A DNA stretch of 64,000 nucleotides from Warburgia ugandensis (lineage: Eukaryota; Streptophyta; Magnoliopsida; Canellales; Canellaceae), in assembly GCA_035236585.1 (NCBI GenBank), contig CP141128.1:31664684-31728683 (forward strand), read 5' to 3'. A program made the translations under genes and the position numbers. The notes below the pieces were generated by a model. That model was not told the DNA's origin, made no database searches, and saw only the letters and a list, made by a program, of their open reading frames with translations. Positions 6,760-53,451 of the stretch are shown here, piece by piece; positions within the stretch are counted from its first letter, which is position 1, and each line of letters begins with the position of its first letter.

Positions 6760-9472
6760 TGTAACATCCCTAATTTTAAAAAATGAATTAAAGTAAAATT
6801 TTAGATTATCTCAAATTGGGATAAAAAGAGAATATCAAAATATCTAATATTTGAAGTTTTTATAAGTGCAAGTTTTATAGACATCAAATTAAGTGTTAAG
6901 ACATCTATATTTGGATTGTACTTGAAAAAATGATTCCAACAGCACTAAGTTTGAGAAAATTGGAGTTCAGACAAATAAATTGCTTAAATATGGGTTTAAT
7001 AGTCAAGAGATGTTGGAATTCCATCATTAGGGGTAGACCGTCCTTTTTTATTGATATTATGGTGTATAGAATATTAAAAACATAATAATTAACCTTTCTA
7101 AATAATTAAAAAGAAATTATTAAAATACTTAAAGGAGGGGGCCAGATTTGATAATGGCACCCCCACTTAAGCAAAAAATGAAAATAGATGTTGGTCTGTT
7201 TCCCAAACTCTATGAAAAAGAGGAAACCTGACAGGGGGAAGAAGAGAAGAAGAAGAAGAGGAAAGGATAAAAAATCCATCCACACCCAAGGAACAAGAGT
7301 TATGGGGGTTTTCGAACACCGGAGAAACAAAGCTCGTTGGCAACAATGGCTGTTCTTATCTCAAATCTGACCATCCATTTTATGATACACAAAGAGGGGA
7401 ACAAAACCCCTTTGATTTTTCCATGATCAGAGGAGGAACGACGTTGGAATTGGAGCCCAATAGCATGCATGGGAGCAGTTGCTGGAAAAATCCAAAATGT
7501 CTTCTTTGGCAACAATGGGGGAGTTGGGAACATTACATAGGTAAGATCCTTACTTAAATTCATTGTTTTGTCTTGATTGTTTATTATTTTGAGAGATTTC
7601 ATGTAGATCTAGGGTTTTGAGAGAAAACAGAGGAAAATGTGGATCTCACAGGTTAATGAAGATTGATTAGAACTCCAAGAATCTTTGCTTAAGTTCTGAT
7701 CATTGAATCCAATGCCATATACACTGATCTGAACCGTCAAATCATCTGAAGAAGATAGATCTGACGTTCTGAATGGGTTGTGACCATCAGATCACCTATA
7801 ATAGACATATTTAAACCTTAATTTCAGATATAACAACAAACCTTTACTAATTTCTCCACCTATTGTAAGGATTAATGACTGATCAGGGCTCTAACCACTC
7901 CATTAATGCTTTGATCATCCATTCAAGGTGGAGAGTGGTCCATTAAACATTGTACACCCTTAAATTAGCTAAATTTGGCCATTATGTTGAATATTAGCTG
8001 CTGGATCATTTGTAAGAGATAGATGATGTTAAATGGCAAATTAGATCAGTGATCTGTGTACTATTATGCTAGATCAGACTATTTAACTTTGTTGAATTCC
8101 TGATTTTTCAACAATTCAGACCATGTTGTCTCATTCTGTGATGATGAGTGACTGATTGGAGCTTTAGCCATTCCATTGGTATTCTAATCCCTGCTCCATG
8201 TCTTGTCATACATTGATCCCACCACATTCAAAGTTGGTAGTCCATGAACCACAGATTTGACCATTCACCAGTAGGATGTACTGGTTGACTGTCCAATCAG
8301 CTACTATTAGGATTCAAATAAGGAAATGTTTGATCAATGCCATTGTGTTCTTTAAACTTGGAATTGTCTCAAACTAAAGAAAATCTCAGATCAGAACACT
8401 AATCTAATAGATATGAATAACTAAAATGAAGTTATTGGTTAGATCGCAGTCATATACCGAAGATTGACTGTTTAGCATTGTTTATATGGAATTAAATGGA
8501 ATATGATCATCAAATTTCAGTTAGAATTGCTATTTAAAAGAGATTATACTGGTCTATGAAATTTAAGAAAGTTAGACCATTTAATCAGATCATATAAAGA
8601 TGTGATCATATCTTCCATGAATAACTTAGGAACAATAATAGTAAAACATCAGAATAGGCAAATGTGGCCTCAAGAGGATAAACTAATTAAAATAATTAAT
8701 CATGGATCAATGAGAGATTGTAAGTCTAATGGTTTTATGACCTTAAGATGGTTTGAACTATTAGACCATGAGATGAGTACAAATATAAGTTATGGATTTA
8801 TAATGGTATCATACTTAGAACTGATGTTGTGACCATCAACTTTATGCACAACATAGATTGACACGCAAGTTGATTTACGATGGATAGTGGATCGTAAAAG
8901 CTATGGAGAAAGGACAAACTGTCTTAAGAGGTAGGTAATTTGATATTGCCAATTTCAAATGATCTTGAAAATGAGAAAATGATTTGAGAACAATTTTAGG
9001 TTTTGAATTATTATACCAATGACATGATGCATATATATACGTGATGTGAGTGTCTATGATTTTCTTATAGATTCATGATTCTTCTTATGTTTCTTATATC
9101 TTACAAATGAAATGTGTGAATTAATAGCTGGTTTTAAATTCATATTGCAAACTTAATTTGGAAAGAATCATGAATTATTCAATTCAAAGTATTCAAATAC
9201 TTAATTTACTTATGCAACATGAGAAAATAGTGACTTGTATATGCAAGAACTCCTTATTTTGGAAAGAAAGCTTTAAAATGCATAGTTTTGTACAAGATAA
9301 GCATGTCATATGATACGGTTTTTAGGTATACGAATATGAAAATGACCTAGATTGGTTATTGAGCTATACTTTGAAAAGAATATTTGAGATATATAGTTTT
9401 GCATAAAGTATTCATACTGTTTTATATGATTTGAGAAGTATGATGGGATCTTTTGATGGTGATTACCCTATA

Positions 9473-10095
9473 AGGTCAGTCTGCCTACATGTGTTGCAAA
9501 GGGACTTCAGGTTAGTCTGCCTACATGTGTTGCAAAGGGAGCATAGGTTAGTCTTCCTGCATGTTTTGTGAAGGGACCTCAAGTTAGTCCTCCTGCATGT
9601 GTTGTAAAGGGACCTCAGGTTAGTCTGCCTGCATATGTTGCAAAGGGACCATAGGTTAGTTCACCTACATGTGTTGCAAAGCGACCTCAGGTTAGTCCCC
9701 TTGCATGTGTTACAAATGGACACTAGGTTAGTCTACCTGCATGTGTTGCAAAGGGACATTTGGTGATTTACTCTATGAGATTAGTCTGCCTACATGTGTT
9801 GCAAAGGGACACCAGGTTAGTTTGCCTACATGTGTTGTACAGGCACATTTGGAAACCCTATATGGTTAGTCCACCTGCATGTGTTGCAAAAGGACATTTG
9901 GCTGTTTACCCTATATGGTTAGTCTGCCTACATATGTTACAAAAGGACATTTGGTGATTTGCCCTATGTGGTTAGTCCACCCTCATGTGTTGCAAAGGAA
10001 CATATGGTTAGTCCGCCTGCATGTGTTGCAAAAGGACACTTGGTGATTTGCCCTATATGATGGTTGGTCTACCTGACATGTGTTGTCAAAAGACC
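9473..10095 (+). repeat. Minisatellite in solo LTR, unit 1 (about 15 copies, about 36 bp and longer variants)
   Basis: About fifteen degenerate copies of a unit built on GGTTAGTCTGCC, TACATGTGTTGC and AAAGGGAC. Copies are spaced about 33-53 bp; the longer ones carry an extra ATTTGGTGATTTACCCTAT-like stretch. The core holds the palindrome ACATGT. The long frame running through it (9760-9957) is a by-product of the periodicity. Confidence 0.9.
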
Positions 10096-10598
10096 TTTTG
10101 TGGTATTTTGTTTTACTATGGATGATATGTTTTTACATGATGAGCTGGTTATTTAAAACTATACTACATACAGTGGTTTAAAGTAATGACATGATACTTG
10201 ATTTGCAAGTATGATATAGAGTTTTGTTGGTGACATACATGTGTATATACATGCATATATGTGCTATAATGTATTCCATGAAATGATTTATGACAACATG
10301 ATTTTATTATTAGAAAAATCACTCTTCAAATCATTGTATGTGTATGCTGTGATTTTGGTTTTGTAGTATTGGGTTATTTACTGAGTAGTATACTCATCCT
10401 ACTATTTTTACTACAGATAAGTTCGAAAAGGATTAACAAGGAGATTAAGTTCTGGAAGACCACTTGTTGATTTAAGAGGATAAGTAATGAGGTACTTTAG
10501 AGTTTCATTAAGAAACTCAATTTCATTGATTATTAAATAGTCATTCGATATTGTATGTGATTTAATTGTAATTGGGCTATGGTGATAAGTCTTGGTGC

Positions 10599-10678
10599 AT
10601 GCATGTCATAAGTTATTTGAAAAGGAGACGGAGTCTCCATGCATGTCATAAGTTGTTTGAAAAGGAGACAGAGTCTCC
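10599..10678 (+). repeat. 40-bp tandem duplication with hairpin arms, unit 1
   Basis: Two adjacent 40-bp copies beginning ATGCATGTCATAAGTT. Each ends in a GGAGAC...GTCTCC inverted repeat with a 3-base loop, giving two hairpins 40 bp apart. Confidence 0.9.
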
Positions 10679-10842
10679 ATTTGTGTTTTAAATATAAACA
10701 AATATTTATCAGGTACTTCGTAATGACATGCATTAAATGTCTATTGTCCGAAAAACAAAAGAATCTCTGCCAGATTTTTAGTAGAAATAAGCACTCATTT
10801 TATCTTGAATCCTTGTTTTAAGAAAAGAAAAATGACACCAGG

Positions 10843-11498
10843 TGTTGAGTGTTCAATTTTGGTCAAAATACCCCTAATTTAGTGTTCAATTAGAGCATCT
10901 AGGCCATTAATTTCAAGATTTTACATAAAATATTCTGTTTTAGCTTTAATTGGCCATCCAACCGTTGAATTGCAAAATTGACAATCAGATGATCATCAAA
11001 GCTAATTAAATGAATAATGAATGGTTTAGATTGTGGTAATTGGGTCCTGTACATTGCAGATTGGTCAACTCAGGCATGGACGCTCTAGATCGAATCAAGG
11101 ATATTAGATGGAGATCAGATGAAGTTTCATGGAAATTAGATGGAATTCGAAGAGTCCTAGGACAGGACAAAGTTGAAGACTTGCAGAGTTTTAGCAAGTC
11201 TAGAATTCTAGTGGACCCCATTCTCTCTCTTATCTCTCTTTCTCCTCTCTTTTTCTCTCTTTTTCTCTCTTATCCCGCTCCTTTCTTTCCTCTCTCTCTT
11301 CTATCTCTTTGTCTCCTTCTCTTATCCCTCTCTCTTATACGTCTCTCCCTCTCTCTCTTCTATCTCTTTTTCTCCTTCTCTTATCCCTCTCTCCCTCTCT
11401 CTCTTTCAAAACACCCTTCTTCCTTCTCTAGGGGATGTTTTTTTTCCCTCTTAGGAAGGTGGGCTGGCCGGTACATTCTCCTCTCCACTCTCTCTCTC

Positions 11499-11571
<73 letters not shown>

Positions 11572-12707
11572 GCGCCCTTCTCCGTTTCACTCTCCCCCAC
11601 TTCTTTTTCCCTCACTTCCTCTTCCCTTACTCTTCTCACCCTCCCTTCTCTATTTTTTTCCCTCTTCCTCTTCGGTTGTGCTAGCCGGCCATAGGTGCGT
11701 GACACACCACAGCTTGGCCGGCAAATAAACCCACCTAACTCCCTTCCTTTCTCCTTCCCGCATCTCTCTACTTCTCCCTCCATTTCTCCTTCAATGCACA
11801 ACAACCTCCCTCGTCTTCTCTCTCTCCTGATCGCTTTCTCATCCTCTTCTTTCCCACTTTCTTTCCCAACTGGTGTCGCCTGCACCCTTCATCTCCGGCC
11901 AAAGTCCCTCCTTCCAGCCAATAACCAGGCAACCTAGCTCACTTTTCTTCTCCTGTCTGCTCGATCTAGACCACTGCACGGTCCTGGGGAAGAAAACCCA
12001 GAACGGGTTTTCTCTCATCTCTTTTCCTCTCCCTCATTCTTCTTCTTCTCCTCTTTTCTTCCCCCTTCTCTGATTTCCACAGTCACTGGACGGCCATGGG
12101 AGAGAAAACCCAGAACGGGTTTTCTCCCCATCTTCCTTCTTCCCTCTCTCTTCCTCTCCTCCTTTTCTTCTTCTTCTTCTTCTTCCTCTTTTCCTCCCTC
12201 CTTCTTCCTTCTTCCTCCTCTTCTGGTTTTCATCGTTTTCCTGGTTTTTTTCGTTAAAAACCAGAAACCCCCAAAATTACACATCTGCCCCTCGCAGATC
12301 TCAGGAATTACCAATCTGTCCCCAGTTTAATTCCTCTTCTGTCCCAGGGAAAATTCCATCTGTGTCCCCGATTTAATTCTAACTGTGTCCTCACTTTAAT
12401 TACATCTATGTCCCGATTTTGTTTTATTAACATTTTGACTATTCAGGGACAGTGCAATCCAAGACCAGCTTATCCAGGACGCTTTTTGGTTTTGTTTTTT
12501 GTTTTCTTTGAAATAAATAATTGTGAACACTGGAACAATTGAATAAATCTGGATTTTAGTTTATTTGTAGTATATTCTTTGTTTTTATTCTTTTAGTTGA
12601 ATTTTATTTAAAACTCCATCATTTTAAATCAAGTCCTTATGGGATCAACCCGTACTTGCATAAGCTACACTACAATAACCCGTGCACTTGCAGTTAAACA
12701 ATCAACA
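10843..12707 (+). repeat. E copy 1, 5' LTR (1,865 bp)
   Basis: Starts TGTTGAGTG, ends CAATCAACA. About 370 bp of ordinary sequence is followed by about 1 kb of very pyrimidine-rich DNA (about 11218-12250). That block contains a (TC)n run, three GGCCGG words (about 11465, 11687, 11717) and two hairpins of form GAAAACCC-AGAAC-GGGTTTTC (11991-12013 and 12102-12126). The tail holds about five phased CTGTGTCCC-like words (12316-12415). Frames rich in Leu/Ser or Arg/Glu here come from the TC repeat. Confidence 0.9.
11488..11567. repeat. (TC)n microsatellite, E1 5' LTR
   Basis: About 80 bp of TC dinucleotides with one early interruption. Confidence 0.95.
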
Positions 12708-12713
12708 AGTTTT

Positions 12714-12731
12714 TGGCGCCGTTGCCGGGGA
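12714..12731 (+). promoter_or_regulatory. Primer-binding site, tRNA-Asp(GUC)
   Basis: TGGCGCCGTTGCCGGGGA is the exact complement of the last 18 nt of plant tRNA-Asp(GUC) including CCA. It lies 6 bp inside the 5' LTR. This primer is known from Athila/Calypso-type elements. The corresponding site in copies 2-4 matches less well. Confidence 0.9.
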
Positions 12732-13904
12732 CTTGCAATGCAATTTTTATAAAATTTAATTAAAAATCCAAAAAAAATATAAAAAAGTTAGAAAAAAATA
12801 TAAAAAATCCAAACAAATTCAGAAAAATAAAAAATTAGGAATTGCATTTTAGGCATTCTTAGGTGCATCTTTAGGCATTTTTAATTGAATAACTACTTTA
12901 TTTCCTGAATTTGGTACTAATCATTATTTTTCTTTTTCAGGAAATTGGAGTGGAGCATCATCACTTAGATAGATTTTCCTTGATTTCATAGATTAGGAAT
13001 TTTTATTTTTGAGTGAATCTTGTAGTGAGGCCCTTTTGTAATTTGCATTTTCCATTTCAATTTTAAAGGGTTGTAATAATACAGGGCAAGTGTGGGATAA
13101 GGTGGCCCACACTTGATCTTCACCAGAAACCTCACTGTAAGTCTTCTCACTCACTCATTTATTTTATAGATTAGGGTTTGCATTTAGAATAATTTGCATT
13201 GGTTAGTAGTTAAATTGCATATAGAAAGCATTTGTTATAATTGTTGCATTTTAGGATTTTGCATTAGTTTTTTGTTTTTAATTACATTTTTAGGACACGT
13301 CTAACGCTTTAAGGTGAATTATATGTTGATCGAATTACAATGGTGTGTCAAAATTAATTAGTAAAGGCACCCTACCCCACAAGATCAAGGGTGGAATTCA
13401 TCACCACTCCTTGGCCCACCTAGATGATCACCTCAAGCGCACAACCCCACCATTCACTTTAAATTAAAATCAATTAAAAGAGACCTATAGGGTCATCACA
13501 TGCTCATAGGGCCCTCTTAATAGGACACGAATTACTGTCACTCCGGTTACTTTTGATCACTATGGTTATTGGGAGTTGTCTAATAGAGCCTCGCTCTTCC
13601 ACCACCTCTTGTCGATGTTTGTTGAGGTCTAAACACCTCCTTACATGAGGGTTGTATTAACTGCTTTGGTTAGAACCTAACTGGTAAGCAGTAGTCAACT
13701 CCTAAAGAGAGTAGGAGCGTTAGATCAAGCTAATTAAAAGCGTTGTCCTCACATAAAATCAAGAAAATCAAAATATTTATGCTTGTTAGCCTTAGGGGAT
13801 TGCTTGATTGTGTCCTTAATTATGCATCATTTTAGGCATTTAGTTTGTATCATTTAGGATAGTCTTCTAAAAAAAAAAGAAAGAAAGAGAGAAGACATGA
13901 TTAG
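12732..13904 (+). other. E copy 1 leader (5' UTR)
   Basis: About 1.2 kb between PBS and gag with no recognised gene. It starts AT-rich with TTAGGCATT-like words, then becomes mixed-composition (13370-13740) with several complementary-looking blocks. This is a typical place for packaging or dimerisation signals, but none can be assigned by eye. A GTAAGT word occurs at 13138; no use as a splice site is claimed. Confidence 0.6.
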
Positions 13905-15600
13905 TTGCACCTAATGAATAATTTAAACACTGATCCAAAGGGTAATTTACACCCTAGCATTAATAGAGAAGATGTTTCCTCATGGACGAACAATCCTCTC
14001 TTTAATGCTGATTATCCTCCACCTCTATTTCATGATGATATGTGTCAATGGAGGAATCATTCTCGACCACATGGAAATAGGAGAAAGGACCAACATAAAA
14101 CACATGAGAATAACCAAAATTCTTGTGGGAAGACACTAAGAGATTATTTATAGCCTAATTATACCAGCACACTTTCATGTATACTTTTACCTACAAATGC
14201 TGGTATGATTGACTTAAAGGTGGGAGTAATTCAATTACTTCCCAAATTCTATGGGTTGGATAGTGAGAGTCCTTACATGCATTTAAAAGAATTCAATGAA
14301 GTGTGCATGACTCAACATACACAAAACATCGACTTAAATATAGTAAGACTCAAACTATTTCTTTTTCTTCAAAGGAAAACGCTAAGATGTGGTTTCATTC
14401 AATGCCACCAGGTTCCATACGAACATGGGAAGATATGACTAGGAAGTTCTTGAATAAGTTCTTTCCTAGACATAAGACAATTGCTCTTCGTCAAAATATA
14501 GCGAATTTTACCCAGACGAATAATGAAACTTTCTATCAATGCTGGGAAAGATTTAAGGAATTATTGTTGACTTGTCCACATTATGGATACAAACTTTGGC
14601 ATATCATTAGCTTCTTTTATGAAGGACTTAAATCTAATATGCATCAATTTGTTAAAATGATGTGCAATGGTAATTTCTTAAATAAAGAACCTGAAGAAGC
14701 ACAAGAGCATTTGGAATGGTTGACAGAGAGTGCACAAACTTGGGCTGATTCAGAAAAAGTAGGTTTTTCAAGTGAGCCTAAGACCACCACCACATCCTTT
14801 AGGGGAGAAATATATGCTATGATTGAAAAAGATGATATAAAAATAGTATCCCTAGATAGAACAGTTGAGGCCATGGAAATGGAGAAAAGTCCCTCTAAGA
14901 AAGTCGAACAGGTGTGTGATATTTGTGAAAGTAATACACACCCCACTCAAGAATGTCCTATTGCTCTTGCATTTCAGGATGCTCTTCATGAATCGACACA
15001 TTCTTATGAGCAACATTTTTCCCCATCTTTAGAGACATATAATTTTAAATGGAGTAATCATTCCACTTTTAGAAATGAATATAAGGTTAATGCCTCACAG
15101 AAGTCCCAACATCAACCCTAACACCACAAAGGACCATTTGCTCATGGACCATACCTTCCTCCACATAAGAGGAAAGTGGAGGATAATTTCCATCAAGTCA
15201 TGCAATACCAGGAGAAGAAAATTTCTCAAATTAAAACCCAATTAAAAGAGAACACAAATTCCACAACTGAATTGAAGGACATGACGTCTCAAATGCTACA
15301 TACTATTAATAAAGAGGAATGTCCTATTCCACTAAATGAATATCTTGATGATATGGATGTAGGAGACAAGATTAATTCTTCATTTATAGACATGGAACAA
15401 ATAAAGGCTACCATTATTCATAATGGTAACATAATTGAGCAATGTGTACCTAAAAAGGCTGAAATAGTATCTAAGCGGTCGAAAAAGAGATGAATTTATT
15501 GATCAGGAAAATGTCACACCCACTAAGCAATATGACATCCTTGCTCCATTTCCAAAATGGCTACATCGAACTCCTACAATTGTCTCTAATTATGTGAAGT
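13905..15600 (+). pseudogene. E copy 1 gag fossil
   Basis: Segments in order: a charged N-terminal part (ending TLRDYL), a capsid-like part with GVIQLLPKFYGL and YMHLKEFNEVC, the gag core (WFHSMPPGSIRTWEDM, then LNKFFPRHKT), and a CX2CX4HX4C zinc knuckle, CDICESNTHPTQEC. A lysine/glutamate-rich tail follows (15176 onward). This matches the gag of Athila/Tat-type plant elements. The reading frame is broken in a few places, so it is a fossil. No pol follows. Confidence 0.85.
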
Positions 15601-17460
15601 AGCTTGAAGATAAATTTATCTTGCCTTGTGACAAAATGAAAAATTTTAAATAGCAAGATAAATTTATTCATGATTCCTTTTCAGAGGCTCGTCCAGCTCA
15701 TTTCGTATGGGACCCAGGGAAGTTTCGAACCCAGTAATGTTTTTCCTCTGAAAATTTTCATTTGAAAATAAAGTATATAGCATAGTTTTTACTTTCTTAT
15801 TTTTCTTTTTCAGATTTTTTTGTATATCTCTCAATTTTTTTGCGTTTCTCAATGCAATATCATCATCATACTTTTTAAACATTGAGGACAATGCTTCTGT
15901 CAGGTTGGGGGCTGTAGAATTCTAATAAATTCTAGTTTTTTTTTTAGGTGATTTCCTTGTTTTTCAAAACAAAAAAAAATTGAAAAAATTTAGGTCATTT
16001 CCTATACTATGATGAGAATTGGATTTTTTTGAAGTATAATCTGGATACATTAGCTTATTAATGGAATTGAATATGATTAATTCATCATTTTACTCATTTT
16101 CTAAAGAATTCCATGAAAGCAAAGTCTCAGATCACATTTGTACACGCAGTTGCATATAGATAGTCTAAATTGATAAGTGGCTATAACTTAGAAATTCTGA
16201 AGAAATTCAGTGGAGACCTATAACCTTAGTGAGTTTTAGAGTCATTCATCCATTTTGAGAGGTTATAAATGTTCAAAATTTTCTTCAGCGTACTTAAAGC
16301 AAATTGATCCCAAAATCTTAAATTTGGATAATTACCTGAATAATTAGAATATTACCTTCAAAATTCTTGAAGTTCATTGAATTTGATAGATTATAGGAAA
16401 CCTAGAAAATGATTTAGGCCATCTTTGTTATTAACCTAGAGACATAAAGCCTACCCAGAAGTATTTTTACCACTAGTTAGCCAAGTTGAGCCTTTCATAT
16501 AAAGCCATTTTTCTTTTATCACCCAAATTAACCTTTTACCCATATTAACCAAGTATAAATTATCAAGTACCCAATTTTCTTTGAAAAACAAGTTAGAGAT
16601 GAATGAAGGAATATCTTTCAGTTGCATATGAATGTATAAAGTGGATATGAAGAAAATAAATATTCTTCAAAGTGAGTCAAAAGTACTGAAATATAAAGAA
16701 AAGAGTCTGAAAAAAAAAGAAAAAAGGGTTTGAACAAGGCAAAGAAAAATAGAAAAAGAAATATTCACTTCATCAAAGAAAAGAAAGAATTGCCAATTTT
16801 AGTAGAAGACCTCTACTTATTTTTTGAAGAAACTTTGAATACCCTTATACCCTTTCTTTGGAACCCTGTCCTAAGCCTATGCTTTGTCCAAGTTAAAGAC
16901 CTATTGATTCTAGGATGACTATAGTCTTGATGAGAAAATGAATGGATAGGATCTAAAAGAGTGGTATTTCTAAATATTCAAAGGTAATGACATCTATTCC
17001 AAAGGGATCAACACAAGTAAATTCCTTATTAACTCCCGTTCTTCATGAGTATATGTGAGATATATTTGTTTTCATTGAGTCTTCTCACATAATCAAAAGA
17101 GAGATATGATTTGAATCCTCTATTTGAGAGATTTTATTTCGAGCATATGCCATTAGTAAGGATTGAGGTCAAAACATATTACAAATGGAGTTCAAAAGTT
17201 AAAAGACAACTTAGAGATAAAGATTACCCTATGTGTAACCGTACGCACACACTCACTCGAGATCCGAGCTTAAGTGGAATAGTTTTAACATATGGGTAGG
17301 GTTTTGAATTCTTCAGTCATCTCTATTAGTTTGCTAAATTTGATGGATTTATTGAAGATAATTCTCTCAGAAAACATGGAGATGACCTAAAAAATAAAAA
17401 ATTCTGAATTGAGTTTTTCCATGTTTTGCTAGGGATTAGCAAAATGCTGGTTGGGGTGTG
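15601..17460 (+). other. E copy 1 post-gag non-coding region
   Basis: No gene is seen. The motif ATTGAGGACAATG followed by GGTTGGGGGCTG (15881-15914) is the internal purine-rich block seen after pol in many OTA elements, so pol seems to have been lost between gag and this point. Blocks at 16204-16240 and 16443-16491 match the left element. An A-rich lysine-coding frame at 16730-16918 is probably not a gene. The polypurine tract is at 17449-17460. Confidence 0.65.
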
Positions 17461-18046
17461 TGTTAAGTGATCAATTTTGGTCAAAATACCCCTAATTTAG
17501 TGTTCAATTAGAGCATCTAGGCTATTAATTTCAAGATTTTACATAAAATATTCTGTTTTAGCTTTAATTGGCCATCCAACTGTTGAATTACAAAATTAAC
17601 AGTCAGATGATCATCAAAGCTAATTAAATGAATCATGAATGGTTTAGATTGTGCTCATTGCGTCTGTGCATTGCAGATCTATCAACTCGGCGTGGACTCT
17701 TGAGATCAAATCAAGGATATTAGACGAAGATCAAATGAAGTTTCATGGAAATCAGATGGAATTTGAAGAGCCCTAAGATAGGACAAAGTTGAAGACTTGC
17801 AGAGTTCTAGCAAGTCTAGAATTCTAGTGGACCCCATTCTCTCTCTTATCTCTCTTTCTCCTCTCTTTTTCTCTTATTCCTCTCCTTTCTTTTCTCTCTC
17901 TCTTTTATCTCTTTTTCTCCTTCTCTTATCCCTCTCTCCTATACGTCTCTCCATCTCTCTCTTTTAAAACACCCTTCTTCCTTCTCCAGGGGACATTTTT
18001 TTTCCCTCTTGGGAAGAGGGGCTGGCCGGCACATTCTCCTCTCCTC

Positions 18047-18098
<52 letters not shown>

Positions 18099-19261
18099 GC
18101 TCCCTTCTCCATTTTACTCTCCCCCTCTTCTTTTTCCCTCACTTCCTCTTCCCACTCTCCCCTCTCTATTTTTCTCCCTCTTCCTCTTCGGTTGTGCTAG
18201 TCGGCCATAGGTGCGTGACACACTACAGCCTGGCCGGCAAATAAACCCACCTAACTCCCTTCCTTCTCCTTCCTGCATCTCTCTACTTCTCCCTCCATTT
18301 CTCCTTCAATGCACGACAACCTCCCTCTTCTTCTCTCTCTCCTGATCGCTTTCTCATCCTCTTCTTCCCCACTTTCTTTCCCAACTGGTGTCACCTGCAC
18401 CCTTCATCTCCTGCCAAAGTCCCTCCTTCCAGCCAATACCCAGGCAACCCAGCTCCCTTTTCTTCTCCTGTCTGCTTGATCCATACCACCGCACAGTCCT
18501 GGGGAAGAAAAGCCAGAATGGGTTTTCTCCCAGCTCTTTTCCTCTCCCTCATTCTTCTTCTTCTCCTCTTTTCTTCCCCCTTCTCCGATTTCCACAGTCA
18601 CCGGACGGCCATGGGAGAGAAAACCCATTCTGGGTTTTCTCCCCATCTTCCTTCTTCCCTCTTTCTCTTTCTCTTCCTCTCCTCCTTTTCTTCTTCTTCT
18701 CCTTCCTCTTTTCCTCCCTCCTTCTTCCTCCTTCTCTTCCGGTTTTCATCGTTTTCCTGGTTTTTTTCGTTAAAAACCAGAAACCCCCAAAATTACACAT
18801 CTGCCCCCGGAAGATCTCAGGAATTACCGACATGTCCCCAGTTTAATTCCTCTTCTGTCCCAGGGGAAATTCCATCTGTGTCCTAGAAGAATTCCATCCG
18901 TGTCCCCGATTTAATTGCAACTGTGTCCTCACTTTAATTACATCTATGTCCCGATTTTGTTTTATTAACATTTTGACTATTCAGGGATAGTGCAATTCAA
19001 GGACAGTGCAATCCAAGACCAGCTTATCCAGGACGCATTTTAGTTTTATTTTCTGTTTTCTTTGGAATAAATAATTGTGAATATTGGAACAATTGAATAA
19101 ATCTGAATTTTAGTTTATTTGTAGTATATTCTTTGTTTTTATTCTTTTAGTTGAATTTTATTTAAAACTTCATCATTTTAAATCAAGTCCTCGTGGGATT
19201 GACCCGTACTTGCATAAGCTACACTACAATAGCCTGTGCACTTGCTGTTAAACAATCAACA
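17461..19261 (+). repeat. E copy 1, 3' LTR (1,801 bp)
   Basis: Starts TGTTAAGTG, ends CAATCAACA, and aligns to the 5' LTR throughout. It contains a perfect hairpin GAGAAAACCCA-TTC-TGGGTTTTCTC at 18617-18641, in the same place as the second 5' LTR hairpin but with a different loop. Confidence 0.9.
18051..18093. repeat. (CT)n microsatellite, E1 3' LTR
   Basis: About 43 bp, the shortest of the eight LTR copies. Confidence 0.95.
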
Positions 19262-21578: not shown

Positions 21579-21658
21579 ATGCATGTCATAAGTTATTTGA
21601 AAAGGAGACGGAGTCTCCATGCATGTCATAAGTTGTTTGAAAAGGAGACGGAGTCTCC
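21579..21658 (+). repeat. 40-bp tandem duplication, unit 2
   Basis: Both hairpin words read GGAGACGGAGTCTCC here. Confidence 0.9.
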
Positions 21659-22453: not shown

Positions 22454-22543
<90 letters not shown>

Positions 22544-29034: not shown

Positions 29035-29108
<74 letters not shown>

Positions 29109-33461: not shown

Positions 33462-33545
<84 letters not shown>

Positions 33546-40027: not shown

Positions 40028-40107
<80 letters not shown>

Positions 40108-41269: not shown

Positions 41270-42460
41270 CGGGTTTCCAAAGTGAATTTAAAAGAAAAGA
41301 TTCTTCTGCTATTATTTTATTTTCAAAAGAAAAAAAAAGATTTTCAATAGAGATTGATCTCACTAAGTAAATGTCTTTTGTATTTAAAAAGTCTTATAAA
41401 AACCTAGGTCGTTACACTAAGACATGTACTTGGGTTTAGAACATAGTTTTCATAAGTGTTGACACTTGTAATCCTTCTGTGATTCTAGTTTTGAGCAGCA
41501 TGGCATGTGCTCTTATACGAAAAACACTAACATTGTAAATTTTCTAAAATATTTATTTGATTTATTTGAAAAGCCATGAAAATTTTCTTATTTTTTGAAG
41601 ATTTATTAGTGTGATATTATTAGACCATGAGATAACTTAGAATAGGCAAATGTGGCCTCAAGAGGATAAACTAATTAAAATAATTAATCATGGATCAATG
41701 AGAGATTGTAAGTCTAATGGTTTTATGACCTTAAGATGGTCTGAACTATTAGACCATGAGATGAGTACAAATATAAGTTATGGATTTATAATGGTATCAT
41801 ACTTAGAACTGATGTTGTGACCATCAACTTTATGCACAACATAGATTGACACGCAAGTTGATTTACGATGGATAGTGGATCGTAAAAGCTATGGAGAAAG
41901 GACAAACTGTCTTAAGAGGTAGGTAATTTGATATTGCCAATTTCAAATGATCTTGAAAATGAGAAAATGATTTGAGAACAATTTTAGGTTTTGAATTATT
42001 ATACCAATGACATGATGCATATATATACGTGATGTGAGTGTCTATGATTTTCTTATAGATTCATGATTCTTCTTATGTTTCTTATATCTTACAAATGAAG
42101 TGTGTGAATTAATAGCTGGTTTTAAATTCATATTGCAAACTTAATTTGGAAAGAATCATGAATTATTCAATTCAAAGTATTCAAATACTTAATTTACTTA
42201 TGCAACATGAGAAAATAGTGATTTGTATATGCAAGAACTCCTTATTTTGGAAAGAAAGCTTTAAACTGCATAGTTTTGTACAAGATAAGCATGTCATATG
42301 ATACGGTTTTTAGGTATACGAATATGAAAATGACCTAGATTGGTTATTGAGCTATACTTTGAAAAGAATATTTGAGATATATAGTTTTGCATAAAGTATT
42401 CATACTGTTTTATATGATTTGAGAAGTATGATGTGATCTTTTGATGGTGATTACCCTATA

Positions 42461-43083
42461 AGGTCAGACTGCCTACATGTGTTGCAAAGGGACTTCAGGT
42501 TAGTCCACCTACATGTGTTACAAAGGGAGCATAGGTTAGTCTTCCTGCATGTGTTGTGGAGGGACCTCAGGTTAGTCCTCCTGCATGTGTTGTAAAGGGA
42601 CCTCAGGTTAGTCTGCCTGCATATGTTGCAAAGGGACCATAGGTTAGTTCACCTACATGTGTTGCAAAGCGACCTCAGGTTAGTCCCCTTGCATGTGTTA
42701 CAAATGGACACTAGGTTAGTCTGCTTGCATGTGTTGCAAAGGGACATTTGGTGATTTACCCTATGAGATTAGTTTGCCTACATGTGTTGCAAAGGGACAC
42801 CAGGTTAGTTTGCCTACATGTGTTGTACAGGCACATTTGGAAACCCTATATGGTTAGTCCACCTGCATGTGTTGCAAAAGGACATTTGGCTGTTTACCCT
42901 ATATGGTTAGTCTGCCTACATATGTTACAAAAGGACATTTGGTGATTTGCCCTACGTGGTTAGTCCACCCTCATGTGTTGCAAAGGAACATATGGTTAGT
43001 CCGCCTGCATGTGTTGCAAAAGGACACTTGGTGATTTGCCCTATATGATGGTTGGTCTACCTGACATGTGTTGTCAAAAGACC
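42461..43083 (+). repeat. Minisatellite in solo LTR, unit 4
   Basis: Same copy order. The second copy (about 42.50 kb) reads as a different variant from that in units 2-3. Confidence 0.9.
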
Positions 43084-43587
43084 TTTTGTGGTATTTTGTT
43101 TTACTATGGATGATATGTTTTTACATGATGAGCTGGTTATTTAAAACTATACTACATACAGTGGTTTAAAGTAATGACATGATACTTGATTTGCAAGTAT
43201 GATATAGAGTTTTGTTGGTGACATACACGTGTATATACATGCATATATGTGCTATAATGTATTCCATGAAATGATTTATGACAACATGATTTTATTATTA
43301 GAAAAATCACTCTTCAAATCATTGTATGTGTATGCTGTGATTTTGGTTTTGTAGTATTGGGTTATTTACTGAGTAGTATACTCATCCTACTATTTTTACT
43401 ACAGATAAGTTCGAAAAGGATTAACAAGGAGATTAAGTTCTGGAAGACCACTTGTTGATTTAAGAGGATAAGTAATGAGGTACTTTAGAGTTTCATTAAG
43501 AAACTCAATTTCATTGATTATTAAATAGTCATTCGATATTGTATGTGATTTAATTGTAATTGGGCTATGACTGATAAGTCTTGGTGC

Positions 43588-43667
43588 ATGCATGTCATAA
43601 GTTATTTGAAAAGGAGACGGAGTCTCCATGCATGTCATAAGTTGTTTGAAAAGGAGACGGAGTCTCC
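43588..43667 (+). repeat. 40-bp tandem duplication, unit 4
   Basis: Identical in form to the unit 3 copy. Confidence 0.9.
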
Positions 43668-43831
43668 ATTTGTGTTTTAAATATAAACAAATATTTATCA
43701 GGTACTTCGTAATGACATGCATTAAATGTCTATTGTCCGAAAAACAAAAGAATCTCTGCCAGATTTTTAGTAGAAATAAGCACTCATTTTATCTTGAATC
43801 CTTGTTTTAAGAAAAGAAAAATGACACCAGG

Positions 43832-44469
43832 TGTTGAGTGTTCAATTTTGGTCAAAATACCCCTAATTTAGTGTTCAATTAGAGCATCTAGGCCATTAAT
43901 TTCAAGATTTTACATAAAATATTCTGTTTTAGCTTTAATTGGCCATCCAACCGTTGAATTGCAAAATTGACAATCAGATGATCATCAAAGCTAATTAAAT
44001 GAATAATGAATGGTTTAGATTGTGGTAATTGGGTCCTGTACATTGCAGATTGGTCAACTCAGGCATGGACGCTCTAGATCGAATCAAGGATATTAGATGG
44101 AGATCAGATGAAGTTTCATGGAAATTAGATGGAATTCGAAGAGTCCTAGGACAGGACAAAGTTGAAGACTTGCAGAGTTTTAGCAAGTCTAGAATTCTAG
44201 TGGACCCCATTCTCTCTCTTATCTCACTTATCTCTCTTTCTCCTCTCTTTTTCTCTCTTATCCCGCTCCTTTCTTTCCTCTCTCTCTTCTATCTCTTTGT
44301 CTCCTTCTCTTATCCCTCTCTCTTATACGTCTCTCCCTCTCTCTCTTCTATCTCTTTTTCTCCTTCTCTTATCCCTCTCTCCCTCTCTCTCTTTCAAAAC
44401 ACCCTTCTTCCTTCTCTAGGGAAGTTTTTTTCCCTCTTAGGAAGGCGGGCTGGCCGGTACATTCTCCTC

Positions 44470-44563
<94 letters not shown>

Positions 44564-45702
44564 GCGCCCTTCTCCGTTTCACTCTCCCCCACTTCTTTTT
44601 CCCTCACTTCCTCTTCCCTTACTCTTCTCACCCTCCCTTCTCTATTTTTTCCCTCTTCCTCTTCGGTTGTGCTAGCCGGCCATAGGTGCGTGACACACCA
44701 CAGCTTGGCCGGCAAATAAACCCACCTAACTCCCTTCCTTTCTCCTTCCCGCATCTCTCTACTTCTCCCTCCATTTCTCCTTAAATGCACAACAACCTCC
44801 CTCGTCTTCTCTCTCTCTGATCGCTTTCTCATCCTCTTCTTTCCCACTTTTTTCCCAACCGGTGTCGCTTTGCACCCTTCATCTCCGGCCAAAGTCCCTC
44901 CTTCCAGCCAATAACCGGGCAACCTAGCTCACTTTTCTTCTCCCGTTCGCTCGATCCACCACCGCACCTTGCACGGTCCTGGGGAAGAAAACCCAGAACG
45001 GGTTTTCTCTCATCTCTTTTCCTCTCCCTCATTCTTCTTCTTCTCCTCTTTTCTTCCCCCTTCTCTGATTTCCACAGTCACTGGACGGCCATGGGAGAGA
45101 AAACCCAGAACGGGTTTTCTCCCCATCTTCCTTCTTCCCTCTCTCTTCCTCTCCTCCTTTTCTTCTTCTTCTTCTCCTTCCTCTTTTCCTCCCTCCTTCT
45201 TCCTTCTTCCTCCTCTTCTGGTTTTCATCGTTTTCCTGGTTTTTTTCGTTAAAAACCAGAAACCCCCGAAATTACACATCTGCCCCTCGTAGATCTCAGG
45301 AATTACCAATCTGTCCCCAGTTTAATTCCTCTTCTGTCCCAGGGAAAATTCCATCTGTGTCCCCGATTTAATTCTAACTGTGTCCTCACTTTAATTACAT
45401 CTATGTCCCGATTTTGTTTTATTAACATTTTGACTATTTAGGGACAGTGCAATCCAAGACCAGCTTATCCAGGACGCTTTTTGGTTTTGTTTTTTGTTTT
45501 CTTTGGAATAAATAATTGTGAACACTGGAACAATTGAATAAATCTGGATTTTAGTTTATTTGTAGTATATTCTTTGTTTTTATTCTTTTAGTTGAATTTT
45601 ATTTAAAACTCCATCATTTTAAATCAAGTCCTTATGGGATCAACCCGTACTTGCATAAGCTACACTACAATAACCCGTGCACTTGCAGTTAAACAATCAA
45701 CA
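43832..45702 (+). repeat. E copy 4, 5' LTR
   Basis: 1,871 bp; holds the densest run of unit-specific differences in the window (about 44.81-44.98 kb), largely at CAG/CTG words. Confidence 0.9.
44474..44558. repeat. (TC)n microsatellite, E4 5' LTR
   Basis: About 85 bp, the longest of the eight. Confidence 0.95.
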
Positions 45703-46899
45703 AGTTTTTGATACCGTTGCCGGGGACTTGCAATGCAATTTTTATAAAATTTAATTAAAAATCCAAAAAAAATATAAAAAAGTTAGAAAAAAATATAAAA
45801 AATCCAAACAAATTCAGAAAAATAAAAAATTAGGAATTGCATTTTAGGCATTCTTAGGTGCATCTTTAGGCATTTTTAATTGAATAACTACTTTATTTCC
45901 TGAATTTGGTACTAATCATTATTTTTCTTTTTCAGGAAATTGGAGTGGAGCATCATCACTTAGATAGATTTTCCTTGATTTCATAGATTAGGAATTTTTA
46001 TTTTTGAGTGAATCTTGTAGTGAGGCCCTTTTGTAATTTGCATTTTCCATTTCAATTTTAAAGGGTTGTAATAATACAGGGCAAGTGTGGGATAAGGTGG
46101 CCCACACTTGATCTTCACCAGAAACCTCACTGTAAGTCTTCTCACTCACTCATTTATTTTATAGATTAGGGTTTGCATTTAGAATAATTTGCATTGGTTA
46201 GTAGTTAAATTGCATATAGAAAGCATTTGTTATAATTGTTGCATTTTAGGATTTTGCATTAGTTTTTTGTTTTTAATTACATTTTTAGGACACGTCTAAC
46301 GCTTTAAGGTGAATTATATGTTGATCGAATTACCATGGTGTGTGAAAATTAATTAGTAAAGGCACCCTACCCCACAAGATCAAGGGTGGAATTCATCACC
46401 ACTCCTTGGCCCACCTAGATGATCACCTCAAGCGCACAACCCCACCATTCACTTTAAATTAAAATCAATTAAAAGAGACCTATAGGGTCATCACATGCTC
46501 ATAGGGCCCTCTTAATAGGACACGAATTACTGTCACTCCGGTTACTTTTGATCACTATGGTTATTGGGAGTTGTCTAATAGAGCCTCGCTCTTCCACCAC
46601 CTCCTGTCGATGTTTGTTGAGGTCTAAACACCTCCTTACATGAGGGTTGTATTAACTGCTTTGGTTAGAACCTAACTGGTAAGCAGTAGTCAACTCCTAA
46701 AGAGAGTAGGAGCGTTAGATCAAGCTAATTAAAAGCGTTGTCCTCACATAAAATCAAGAAAATCAAAATATTTATGCTTGTTAGCCTTAGGGGATTGCTT
46801 GATTGTGTCCTTAATTATGCATCATTTTAGGCATTTAGTTTGTATCATTTAGGATAGTCTTCTAAAAAAAAAAGAAAGAAAGAGAGAAGACATGATTAG

Positions 46900-48599
46900 T
46901 TGCACCTAATGAATAATTTAAACACTGATCCAAAGGGTAATTTACACCCTAGCATTAATAGAGAAGATGTTTCCTCATGGACGAACAATCCTCTCTTTAA
47001 TGCTGATTATCCTCCACCTCTATTTCATGATGATATGTGTCAATGGAGGAATCATTCTCGACCACATGGAAATAGGAGAAAGGACCAACATAAAACACAT
47101 GAGAATAACCAAAATTCTTGTGGGAAGACACTAAGAGATTATTTATAGCCTAATTATACTAGCACACTTTCATGTATACTTTTACCTACAAATGCTGGTA
47201 TGATTGACTTAAAGGTGGGAGTAATTCAATTACTTCCCAAATTCTATGGGTTGGATAGTGAGAGTCCTTACATGCATTTAAAAGAATTCAATGAAGTGTG
47301 CATGACTCAACATACACAAAACATCGACTTAAATATAGTAAGACTCAAACTATTTCTTTTTCTTCAAAGGAAAACGCTAAGATGTGGTTTCATTCAATGC
47401 CACCAGGTTCCATACGAACATGGGAAGATATGACTAGGAAGTTCTTGAATAAGTTCTTTCCTAGACATAAGACAATTGCTCTTCGTCAAAATATAGCGAA
47501 TTTTACCCAGACGAATAATGAAACTTTCTATCAATGCTGGGAAAGATTTAAGGAATTATTGTTGACTTGTCCACATTATGGATACAAACTTTGGCATATC
47601 ATTAGCTTCTTTTATGAAGGACTTAAATCTAATATGCATCAATTTGTTAAAATGATGTGCAATGGTAATTTCTTAAATAAAGAACCTGAAGAAGCACAAG
47701 AGCATTTGGAATGGTTGACAGAGAGTGCACAAACTTGGGCTGATTCAGAAAAAGTAGGTTTTTCAAGTGAGCCTAAGACCACCACCACATCCTTTAGGGG
47801 AGAAATATATGCTATGATTGAAAAAGATGATATAAAAATAGTATCCCTAGATAGAACAGTTGAGGCCATGGAAATGGAGAAAAGTCCCTCTAAGAAAGTC
47901 GAACAGGTGTGTGATATTTGTGAAAGTAATACACACCCCACTCAAGCATGTCCTATTGCTCTTGCATTTCAGGATGCTCTTCATGAATCGACACATTCTT
48001 ATGAGCAACATTTTTCCCCATCTTTAGAGACATATAATTTTAAATGGAGTAATCATTCCACTTTTAGAAATGAATATAAGGTTAATGCCTCACAGAAGTC
48101 CCAACATCAACCCTAACACCACAAAGGACCATTTGCTCATGGACCATACCTTCCTCCACATAAGAGGAAAGTGGAGGATAATTTCCATCAAGTCATGCAA
48201 TACCAGGAGAAGAAAATTTCTCAAATTAAAACCCAATTAAAAGAGAACACAAATTCCACAACTGAATTGAAGGACATGACGTCTCAAATGCTACATACTA
48301 TTAATAAAGAGGAATGTCCTATTCCACTAAATGAATATCTTGATGATATGGATGTAGGAGACAAGATTAATTCTTCATTTATAGACATGGAACAAATAAA
48401 GGCTACCATTATTCATAATGGTAACATAATTGAGCAATTTGAACCTAAAAAGGCTGAAATAGTATCTAAACTGGTCAGAAAAAGAGATGAATTTATTGAT
48501 CAGGAAAATGTCACACCCACTAAGCAATATGACATCCTTGCTCCATTTCCAAAATGGCTACATCGAACTCCTACAATTGTCTCTAATTATGTGAAGTAG
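46900..48599 (+). pseudogene. E copy 4 gag fossil
   Basis: Same segments as copy 1, with the zinc-knuckle region near 47.9 kb; tail open at 48171-48599; upstream parts broken. Confidence 0.85.
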
Positions 48600-49758
48600 C
48601 TTGAAGATAAATTTATCTTGCCTTGTGATAAAATGAAAAATTTATCTTACCTTCAAAATTCTTGAAGTTCATTGAATTTGATATATTATAGGAAACCTAG
48701 AAAATGATTTAGGCCATCTTTGTTATTAACCTAGAGACATAAAGCCTACCCAGAAGTATTTTTACCACTAGTTAGCCAAGTTGAGCCTTTCATATAAAGC
48801 CATTTTTCTTTTATCACCCAAATTAACCTTTTACCCATATTAACCAAGTATAAATTATCAAGTACCCAATTTTCTTTGAAAAACAAGTTAGAGATGAATG
48901 AAGGAATATCTTTCAGTTGAATATGAATGTATAAAGTGGATATGAAGAAAATAAATATTCTTCAAAGTGAGTCAAAAGTACTGAAATATAAAGAAAAGAG
49001 TCTGAAAAAAAAAGAAAAAAGGGTTTGAACAAGGCAAAGAAAAATAGAAAAAGAAATATTCACTTCATCAAAGAAAAGAAAGAATTGCCAATTTTAGTAG
49101 AAGACCTCTACTTATTTTTTGAAGAAACTTTGAATACCCTTATACCCTTTCTTTGGAACCCTGTCCTAAGCCTATGCTTTGTCCAAGTTAAAGACCTATT
49201 GATTCTAGGATGACTATAGTCTTGATGAGAAAATGAATGGATAGGATCTAAAAGAGTGGTATTTCTAAATATTCAAAGGTAATGACATCTATTCCAAAGG
49301 GATCAACACAAGTAAATTCCTTATTAACTCCCGTTCTTCATGAGTATATGTGAGATATATTTGTTTTCATTAAGTCTTCCCACATAATCAAAAGAGAGAT
49401 ATGATTTGAATCCTCTATTTGAGAGATTTTATTTCTGAGCATATGCCATTAGTAAGGATTGAGGTCAAAACATATTTCAAATGGAGTTCAAAAGTTAAAA
49501 GTCTACTTAGAGATAAAGATTATCCTATGTGTAAACTGTACGCACACACTCACTCTGAGATCTGAGCTTAAGTGGAATAGTTTAAACATATGGGTAGGGT
49601 TTTGAATTCTTCAGTCATCTCTATTAGTTTGCTAAATTTGATGGATTTATTGAAGATAATTCTCTCAGAAAACATGGAGATGACCTAAAAAATAAAAAAT
49701 TTTGAGTTGATTTTTTGCATCTTTTGCTAGGGATTAGCAAAATGCTGGTTGGGGTGTG

Positions 49759-50347
49759 TGTTAAGTGATCAATTTTGGTCAAAATACCCCTAATTTAGTG
49801 TTCAATTAGAGCATCTAGGCCATTAATTTCAAGATTTTACATAAAATATTCTGTTTTAGCTTTAATTGGCCATCCAACCGTTGAATTACAAAATTAACAG
49901 TCAGATGATCATCAAAGCTAATTAAATGAATCATGAATGGTTTAGATTGTGCTCATTGCGTCCTGTGCATTGCAGATCTGTCAACTCAGGCGTGGACTCT
50001 TCAGATCAAATCAAGGATATTAGACGAAGATCAAATGAAGTTTCATGGAAATCAGATGGAATTTGAAGAGCCCTAAGATAGGACAAAGTTGAAGACTTGC
50101 AGAGTTCTAGCAAGTCTAGAATTCTAGTGGACCCCATTCTCTCTCTTATCTCTCTTATCTCTCTTTCTCCTCTTTTTTTCTCTTATTCCTCTCCTTTCTT
50201 TTCTCTCTCTCTTTTATCTCTTTTTCTCCTTCTCTTATCCCTCTCTCCTATACGTCTCTCCATCTCTCTCTTTTAAAACACCCTTCTTCCTTCTCCAGGG
50301 GACATTTTTTTTCCCTCTTGGGAAGAGGGGCTGGCCGGCACATTCTC

Positions 50348-50434
<87 letters not shown>

Positions 50435-51559
50435 GCTCCCTTCTCCATTTTACTCTCCCCCTCTTCTTTTTCCCTCACTTCCTCTTCCCACTCTCCCCTC
50501 TCTATTTTTCTCCCTCTTCCTCTTCGGTTGTGCTAGTCGGCCATAGGTGCGTGACACACTACAGCCTGGCCGGCAAATAAACCCACCTAACTCCCTTCCT
50601 TCTCCTTCCTGCATCTCTCTACTTCTCCCTCCATTTCTCCTTCAACGCACGACAACCTCCCTCTTCTTCTCTCTCTCCTGATCGCTTTCTCATCCTCTTC
50701 TTCCCCACTTTCTTTCCCAACTGGTGTCACCTGCACCCTTCATCTCCTGCCAAAGTCCCTCCTTCCAGCCAATACCCAGGCAACCCAGCTCCCTTTTCTT
50801 CTCCTGTCTGCTTGATCCAGACCACCGCACGGTCCTGGGGAAGAAAAGCCAGAATGGGTTTTCTCCCATCTCTTTTCCTCTCCCTCATTCTTCTTCTTCT
50901 CCTCTTTTCTTCCCCCTTCTCCGATTTCCACAGTCACCGGACGGCCATGGGATCTCCCCATCTTCCTTCTTCCCTCTTATCTTCCTCTCCTCCTTCCTCT
51001 TTTCCTCCCTCCTTCTTCCTTCTTCCTCCTTCTCTTCCGGTTTTCATCGTTTTCCTGGTTTTTTTCGTTAAAAACCAGAAACCCCCAAAATTACACATCT
51101 GCCCCTGGAAGATCTCAGGAATTACCAACATGTCCCCAGTTTAATTCCTCTTCTGTCCCAGGGGAAATTCCATCTGTTTCCTAGAAGAATTCCATCTGTG
51201 TCCCCGATTTAATTGCAACTGTGTCCTCACTTTAATTACATCTATGTCCCGGTTTTGTTTTATTAACATTTTGACTATTCAGGGATAGTGCAATTCAGGG
51301 ACAGTGCAATCCAAGACCAGCTTATCCAGGACGCATTTTAGTTTTATTTTCTGTTTTCTTTGGAATAAATAATTGTGAATATTGGAACAATTGAATAAAT
51401 CTGAATTTTAGTTTATTTGTAGTATATTCTTTGTTTTTATTCTTTTAGTTGAATTTTATTTAAAACTTCATCATTTTAAATCAAGTCCTCGTGGGATTGA
51501 CCCGTACTTGCATAAGCTACACTACAATAGCCTGTGCACTTGCTGTTAAACAATCAACA
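49759..51559 (+). repeat. E copy 4, 3' LTR
   Basis: 1,801 bp, preceded by GGTTGGGGTGTG; carries some 5'-LTR-type bases near its start. Confidence 0.9.
50353..50429. repeat. (CT)n microsatellite, E4 3' LTR
   Basis: About 77 bp. Confidence 0.95.
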
Positions 51560-51711
51560 CGGGTTTCCAAAGTGAATTTAAAAGAAAAGATTCTTCTGCT
51601 ATTATTTTATTTTCAAAAGAAAAAAAAAGATTTTCAATAGAGATTGATCTCACTAAGTAAATGTCTTTTGTATTTAAAAAGTCTTATAAAAACCTAGGTC
51701 GTTACACTAAG

Positions 51712-53451
51712 ACATGTACTTGGGTTTAGAACATAGTTTTCATAAGTGTTGACACTTGTAATCCTTCTGTGATTCTAGTTTTGAGCAGCATGGCATGTGC
51801 TCTTATACGAAAAACACTAACATTGTAAATTTTCTAAAATATTTATTTGATTTATTTGAAAAGCCATGAAAATTTTCTTATTTTTTGAAGATTTATTAGT
51901 GTGATATTATATAAATATTTTTGTGAAACACAGCTCCTTGGGTTGGGAATTACATCCTAAAACCTCTACATAGAAGTAAAATAAAGATCTAACCTAAATG
52001 GAGTTAGAAGCACATGTCATAGGCTCTTGTTGGTCACAAGTAGAATTAAACATCTATCAAATATAAACATAGTGTCCATTGAAGTCTTATAACTATTCTT
52101 GTGTCAATAAAAGTAAGATATATGCATCCCAAAATGAATTTCCTAAACATGAAATCTACCAAATAAGTTCACAAAGGGTATCTTTATCATACATCCTAGA
52201 ATAGGTCGATGACTTCACTTTGTTATTCTCCTTTGCACTAAGTCTCCTTGGAAATATCACTTGAAATGTTGGTTATAGGGGTAAGCATATCAACTGCTTA
52301 TGTTGAAGAAAACTAATACAAGCCTGCTCGCTGAAAATAAGGCAAGCATACTATAATATATCAATAAGTAACAAAGTATAAGGTTTGAGTTCATGAAATA
52401 AAGTGAGAATATGTGAGAAGTCAATCACAGGAAAAGACTATCAAATGCAAGTCATGCAATCCCAATGGACAATAAGCCATTGATTTAGTTAACCATATGT
52501 AATCCATAGATCATGTGCACAATCCACCATCAAATAGAGTATGAAAACTTATGTCCATGTCTCAGTAGAAAAATTGATTAATCAGATTTAGAAATCATAT
52601 AGTCCTAGCATAAGGGATAGGTTTAGATTATTGAGAGTGATTAGCATGTTGGAAATTTTCCTTTCAGTAAGTTGTCTCGTGAATAACTCATGGTCTATAA
52701 CTCATTAGACCTCATGTCGGCACCCAACTACATTAAAGTAGTTCCCTATGGAAAGCTACTTCTACTACCTACCATCTCCATTGTAAGGCTGGTATTAATA
52801 TGATCTCAGAGGTTAGTGGCCAATCACACCTCCTAGCATAGGGCCTCTAAGTCTTACAATTGTGCGTAGCATGGTTGCTTCAAGTCGTACAACTACCCCA
52901 AGCATTCTTGCTGATATATATAGAAATATCACACACATACCTCTATATTTAGATGGTTTTAGCCCTACGAATAACTTAAATAGCACTAACTGGGGTTAAT
53001 TCTATAATTTGTAGGTTCGAGCACAAATTAAAAAAGGGTAATTTGATAATTCTAACCCTAAAGAAGAGTAAGACTACTTTCTAAGCTACACTAGGTCCCA
53101 TACATGCTAAATATAAAGTTCATGAGTTTTGATTGCGAATTGGGTAGCATTATCAAAGTTAGAGCAATAAGAAACCTCCCATGCACAATTCCCATTCAAG
53201 AAAGGCTGATTTTATAAGAAATTGGGTGACAGAACTTCTGATGCTTGCGTGAAGCTATCCAACACCTTTGGAAGCTTCTAAGGAAACCTCAAATCACATA
53301 CATTGGAATCATATACGACAAAATCTTCTCTAAACTACAACAAGTCAAAAGATCAGGGCTCCCATAATGACTTCTTGTGACATCCTTATGACTCGTTCTC
53401 TTAACATTGATACATTTGATTTCCTAGTACATTTGGTTGTGACTAGTTTAG
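51712..53451 (-). other. Leader of the minus-strand Tekay-type element
   Basis: No gene is seen. It links the PBS at 53452 with the gag fossil that ends at 6759; the original continuity was broken by the solo LTR insertion and the later array. The first 200 bp are also present after each E copy. Words such as GGTTAGTGGCCAATCACACC and CCTAGCATAGGG (about 52.81-52.85 kb) resemble motifs in the Tekay LTR (about 54.40 kb) and near 61.84 kb, so part of this stretch may itself be LTR-derived. Confidence 0.55.

Follow-up and report, generated by a model that had tools for sequence, protein, structure and literature searches.

Four tandem copies of an 11-kb nested retroelement composite in Warburgia ugandensis: probable origin by a single joining accident and unequal crossover

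The origins of large tandem repeats are often inferred from old, homogenised arrays. The locus described here raises the question in a younger setting: how did four units of about 11 kb, each composed of pieces of three different repeats, come to lie side by side in the genome of Warburgia ugandensis? The array lies in a stretch of 64,000 nucleotides (hereafter the window) at 31.66-31.73 Mb on contig C3 (CP141128.1, 94.0 Mb) of assembly GCA_035236585.1, which comprises 1.12 Gb in 14 contigs. Its three components are D, a solo long terminal repeat (LTR); E, an LTR retroelement nested in D; and H, the dispersed repeat that hosts D. The array is in our judgement likely to be a young, in-place tandem duplication produced by one joining accident, to which unequal crossover then added two middle units.

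Self-BLAST and alignment of the window show that positions 8651-51910 are filled by four adjacent units, head to tail and in the same orientation:

8651..19630, plus strand: unit U1, 10,980 bp, with an 18-bp joint at its end
19631..30639, plus strand: unit U2, 11,009 bp, with an 18-bp joint at its end
30640..41638, plus strand: unit U3, 10,999 bp, with an 18-bp joint at its end
41639..51910, plus strand: unit U4, 10,272 bp, without the terminal 18 bp and without 702 internal bases at 48643/48644

This bears out the original prediction of four head-to-tail units of 10,980, 11,009, 10,999 and about 10,270 bp, and the self-comparison suggested with it recovers four direct, adjacent copies. The predicted span of 8653..51910 has the correct end, and a start two bases inside the true one. 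As had also been proposed, all four units have in common the partial D LTR, the E element and the 0.2-kb flank (a 204-bp piece of H). The similarity among units is far above chance. Raw pairwise differences are 0.52-1.01% (57-103 mismatches over 10,197-10,956 compared sites), with extremes of 57 in 10,952 sites (0.52%) for U2 and U3 and 103 in 10,209 (1.01%) for U1 and U4. In a filtered comparison, sites were excluded if they fell in a tandem-repeat tract, lay 8 columns or less from a gap, or had another variable site no more than 5 columns away; this leaves 50 variable sites in 8,015 columns and gives Kimura two-parameter (K2P) distances between units of 0.0019-0.0044. The 702 bases that U4 alone lacks belong to the E interior and correspond to U1 15647-16348; since relatives of E keep these bases, the gap is a deletion in U4. 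Differences also occur in dense short clusters, mostly setting U1 apart from the rest (17181-17423 and 15444-15480, in U1 coordinates) and in one case U2 (13661-13690, in U1 coordinates). These clusters could stem from a complex mutation, from conversion by a different E copy or from an error in the local assembly.

Units that are about 99% identical, with odd short clusters that set one unit apart, raise the possibility of an assembly artefact, in which one or two genuine copies have been multiplied in error or the number of copies is incorrect. A false repeat should yield identical copies or two haplotypes, whereas each unit here has changes of its own (13, 4, 7 and 18 filtered single-unit sites in U1 to U4, respectively), transitions number 33 against 17 transversions, the 702-bp deletion is private to U4, and changes shared among units tend to be ordered along the unit. 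We regard an artefact as very improbable.

The edges of the array and its inner boundaries differ in kind. At the left edge, 10 of the 11 distinct D relatives examined run on through 8651 (the other, L033, gives no alignment there), and at the right edge relatives of H, for example L013-L016, are continuous across 51910. Because D and H relatives run unbroken across these positions, both outer edges are ancestral sequence. The three inner boundaries are identical to one another: the end of the H piece is followed by 18 new bases and then by mid-D sequence, and these 18 bp are missing at both array edges:

19613..19630, plus strand: U1/U2 joint, 18 bp
30622..30639, plus strand: U2/U3 joint, 18 bp, identical
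41621..41638, plus strand: U3/U4 joint, 18 bp, identical

A 26-base sequence made up of the joint and 8 bases of D occurs at three places in the assembly with up to 3 mismatches allowed, all of them in the array, and its reversed control occurs at none. That the joint is ancestral D sequence was considered and rejected, given the 10 of 11 uninterrupted D relatives and the lack of the joint anywhere else in the assembly. Transposition of a composite element is likewise ruled out, neither unit end being an element end. The locus thus combines direct head-to-tail copies, continuous outer edges and one new joint at all internal boundaries, the pattern of a tandem duplication. The original prediction had reached the same view, that a pre-existing nested composite was duplicated and did not transpose, and it holds on three counts: no boundary coincides with an element end, one derived joint occurs three times, and the insertion history of D and E predates the duplication. 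It had placed the boundaries inside the solo LTR on the left and inside a Tekay leader on the right; the positions, within repeats and away from element ends, are correct, and the Tekay identity of the right-hand repeat is not confirmed, as the frames scanned gave no lineage-identifying Pfam domain.

The history of the composite can be read from its nesting, D in H and E in D. The features of D and H are as follows:

6240..6743, plus strand: H to the left of D; relative L037 is colinear with it
6755..6759, plus strand: left target-site duplication of D, CTAAG
6760..10842, plus strand: D solo LTR, 5' part up to the E insertion; starts TGTAACATCCC; U1 begins within it, at 8651
19262..19408, plus strand: D LTR, 3' end following E, in U1 (outer copy 51560-51706)
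19409..19612, plus strand: 204-bp piece of H on the right side of every unit, as found in U1 (outer copy 51707-51910)
51707..51711, plus strand: right target-site duplication of D, CTAAG
51911..52909, plus strand: H beyond the right array edge

D spans 6760, with its TGTAACATCCC start, to 51706, with its GTTACA end, and is bordered on each side by a perfect CTAAG. The H relative L037 on contig C14 provides the empty site, being uninterrupted, with a single CTAAG and no D. From CTAAG on both sides and the D-free H of L037 it follows that D is an insertion in H and a complete solo LTR; it has TG...CA ends, a 5-bp target-site duplication and no internal region. The D LTR also contains an array of its own, of repeats of about 36 bp at 9473-10090, which relatives of D match in several registers.

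Within each unit D is split by E, whose features in U1 are:

10843..12707, plus strand: E 5' LTR
12708..17460, plus strand: E interior, with a primer-binding motif at 12714
14300..15118, plus strand: gag open frame (Retrotrans_gag, PF03732, E-value 3.5e-19)
17461..19261, plus strand: E 3' LTR

The primer-binding motif, which we take to be of the tRNA-Asp (aspartate transfer RNA) type, directly follows the first LTR of E. U1 keeps GGCGCC in this primer-binding site (12716-12718), where a three-base change is common to U2-U4. E may be a gag-only, non-autonomous element of the TR-GAG type: it has LTRs and a gag domain, it has no other long open frames, and no pol was found among the three interior frames scanned. 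The E family is common, at least 36 further places matching the 3' interior at 88-91% identity; in at least 31 of these the match covers almost the full query. The E insertion site is uninterrupted in all three D copies compared there.

The two LTRs of E differ by K2P distances of 0.068-0.078 within each unit, that is by about 7%, against raw differences of 0.5-1.0% between units, and E is for this reason far older than the array. At a rate of 1.3e-8 substitutions per site per year, taken from work on rice, E would have inserted about 2.6-3.0 million years ago, and the distances between units would correspond to about 0.07-0.17 million years when filtered and up to about 0.4 million years from raw differences. 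The ages of the units are lower bounds because of exchange between units. The ratio of E-LTR to unit divergence, which does not depend on the rate, is about 7- to 40-fold according to the choice of sites.

These observations suggest the following course of events. D entered H, where it is now a solo LTR, and a few million years ago E inserted into D. A single repair or replication accident would then have joined a point 204 bp into H to mid-D, yielding two 11-kb units with a templated joint of 18 bp between them. Finally, two middle units may have been added by homologous unequal crossover, as mosaics of the outer ones; in each of them the left portion would come from the right-hand unit and the right portion from the left-hand one.

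The first duplication has left its trace in the joint itself, for which two possible sources lie near the left breakpoint:

8759..8774, plus strand: probable first template of the joint (template 1), with 16 bases in common, of which the first 3 are microhomology to the right-hand end
8621..8629, plus strand: possible template 2 of the joint, a 9-base match

Of the 18 joint bases, 13 (16 with the microhomology) match 8759-8774, located 108 bases inside the left breakpoint. A 13-base match within 300 bp arises in 1 of 20,000 random 13-mers and in 3 of 20,000 shuffled fillers. The filler thus appears to be copied from near the breakpoint, with microhomology, as in templated repair. Templated fillers of this sort are characteristic of Pol theta end joining and of microhomology-mediated break-induced replication, and to judge from the joint bases, template switching by one of these routes probably took place here. 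Local DNA folding at the left breakpoint is ordinary (z -0.68).

A different beginning would be recombination between LTRs or other long repeats. In an LTR-sharing retroelement array one LTR is common to two adjacent copies and the unit boundaries fall at LTR ends; adjacent Cassandra copies have LTRs in common. Such an origin would suit units that are full of repeats, and Cassandra resembles the present array in being a case of retroelement tandem arrays in plants (PMC7215508). The units described here do not join at LTRs, however. Their ends lie in D and H, no long sequence is shared at the joint, both E LTRs are kept with their flanks in every unit, and the 18 joint bases are found at neither edge. 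The joint sequence contradicts LTR recombination for the first step, and we consider this origin the most improbable of those weighed.

Growth from two units to four by unequal crossover would leave a particular order of shared changes: the left parts of U2-U4 should share changes absent in U1, and the right parts of U1-U3 should share changes absent in U4. The 50 filtered sites comprise 19 usable shared sites, 24 private sites, 3 without an outgroup, 3 with a third state and 1 split. Shared derived changes group U2, U3 and U4 in 4 of the 19 events, U1, U2 and U3 in 7, U2 and U3 in 4, and U1 and U2 in 4. Two crossovers fit 16 of the 19, compared with 11 of 19 for the best single tree, and 16 is reached in 589 of 20,000 permutations (p 0.029). 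When the clustered three-base change in the E primer-binding site, shared by U2-U4 and the clearest single marker, is added as one event, 17 of 20 fit (301 of 20,000 permutations). The best-fit crossovers are bracketed by alignment columns 4,127-4,749 and 4,608-8,939. Sites at which U1 alone differs lie to the left of those at which U4 alone differs (Mann-Whitney p 0.0086 for filtered and 0.0033 for unclustered sites), and private changes are more numerous in the outer units, which account for 31 of 42 such sites after filtering (p 0.003) and for 42 of 67 private derived events without it. The evidence that the middle units are mosaics of the outer ones, with groupings that differ between left and right, is moderate. 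Doubling of a two-unit block, from two units to four, was also considered and found no support, as none of the 150 variable columns alternates with U1 equal to U3 and U2 equal to U4.

The same arrangement might have arisen in one step, by rolling-circle amplification, re-insertion of an excised circle or repeated copying in break-induced replication, with later gene conversion producing the patchwork. A single identical joint at three boundaries is equally expected from such amplification; sites that misfit the crossover model suggest some conversion, and the ordering of shared changes reaches only moderate significance. One-step amplification nevertheless predicts no left/right order of shared derived changes, whereas an order is seen, if more weakly in unfiltered data, and re-insertion elsewhere is unlikely with both edges continuous with family sequence. 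We therefore think amplification in one step unlikely, although it deserves more credit than the other alternatives. Stepwise unequal crossover with some gene conversion has moderate support from these site patterns, from which we infer both the crossovers and their number.

Several points weigh against the proposed history of nesting, templated joining and crossover. The target-site duplication of E is imperfect, CCAGG before and CGGGT after the element. The remaining five joint bases fall within the 9-base match at 8621-8629, which arises by chance in 1,383 of 20,000 trials (about 7%), and for that reason a second template switch is only suggested. Shared changes were polarised with D relatives, with the sister LTR for LTR sites and, for the E interior, with a single E relative (L053/L054). 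Three filtered events misfit, at columns 5575, 9765 and 10517, so that gene conversion or repeat mutation is needed in addition. Without the filter, 119 of 148 two-state columns were polarised (an outgroup was lacking for 18, in a third state for 6 and split for 5), with 2 three-state columns excluded and adjacent columns of one grouping merged; here 21 of 27 events fit, a count reached in 371 of 10,000 permutations (p 0.037), and 2 additional events show other groupings. The position test of U1-alone and U4-alone sites over all 150 variable columns gives p 0.061. Finally, the copy number is that of the assembly, and the true number could differ.

No genes were found in the unit besides element remnants, and a tRNA scan returned no tRNA; the units are taken to be passive passengers, and no function is claimed for them. 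Parts of the unit amounting to less than the whole (window 8151-9350, 10000-11000, 15500-17450, 51500-52700 and 51560-51906) were searched for in the assembly, and among the best-scoring candidates none outside the array matches at more than 91% identity. A Tekay chromovirus would be recognised by a Tekay-type pol and chromodomain, or by its primer-binding site. Pfam searches tied no domain to H in ten open frames from its relatives and ten from the right flank, and a primer-binding motif sought across the window gave no match. Among the open frames of relatives scanned, L031 has a gag match. A further copy of H (L035:670-1820) lies in the same orientation about 9-10 kb left of the window. Elsewhere in the flanks, a direct repeat of about 520 bp with 85% identity (52-564 and 4532-5052) lies left of the array; L034, which is situated about 11-21 kb to the left of the window, contains related sequence. 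On the minus strand, the frame 58056-58358 has a SH3_Tf2-1 match (E-value 1.8e-10); it is probably a remnant of another Ty3-type element, and no link to H is made.

Satellites and macrosatellites are long arrays of many units, usually tens or more, and the term macrosatellite, which the original prediction had used, is overstated for an array of four copies. The closest match in mechanism is the CUP1 arrays of yeast (Zhao et al. 2014, PMC4232551), in which the first duplicate is explained by joining without long homology, unequal crossover is one way in which an existing array changes length, and repeats are 0.5% divergent. CUP1 units differ in being 1.2-2 kb long and carrying a gene, and their joints have repeats of three bp or less, compared with the 18-bp filler found here (PMC4232551). 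In maize, the tandem repeats CRM1TR and CRM4TR are proposed to have arisen from LTR-retroelement sequence by illegitimate recombination and to have grown by homologous exchange, for which gene conversion is preferred and unequal exchange is not excluded (Sharma et al. 2013, PMC3648361). Their monomer is an LTR-untranslated region segment of one element, in or near centromeres, whereas here an 11-kb composite of three repeats is present four times (PMC3648361). The Sobo satellite of wild potato, with a 4.7-kb monomer and a length of about 360 kb, as cited in PMC3648361, is similar in its large, partly LTR-like monomer at one chromosomal site; it differs in copy number, about 75 (360 kb / 4.7 kb) against four. 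The route from transposon to satellite is reviewed in PMC12628747 and PMC9659126. A literature search that covered subscription literature thinly found neither the present locus nor a comparable 11-kb composite unit.

The array is consistent with early satellite birth. That it is a satellite born no more than a few hundred thousand years ago, with nested insertion, template-switch duplication and two crossovers all readable, is an idea we put forward tentatively, as something short of probable; if it is true, copy number should vary among living plants, all of them with the same joint. A single sequence here still reveals the first joint, its flanks and, with less certainty, the succession of later exchanges. 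This legibility makes the standard model, an illegitimate first duplication followed by unequal crossover, testable by means of one 26-base joint across individuals. The array is a new example of a known process, involving no new mechanism, and its main value lies in how much of its stepwise history can still be read.

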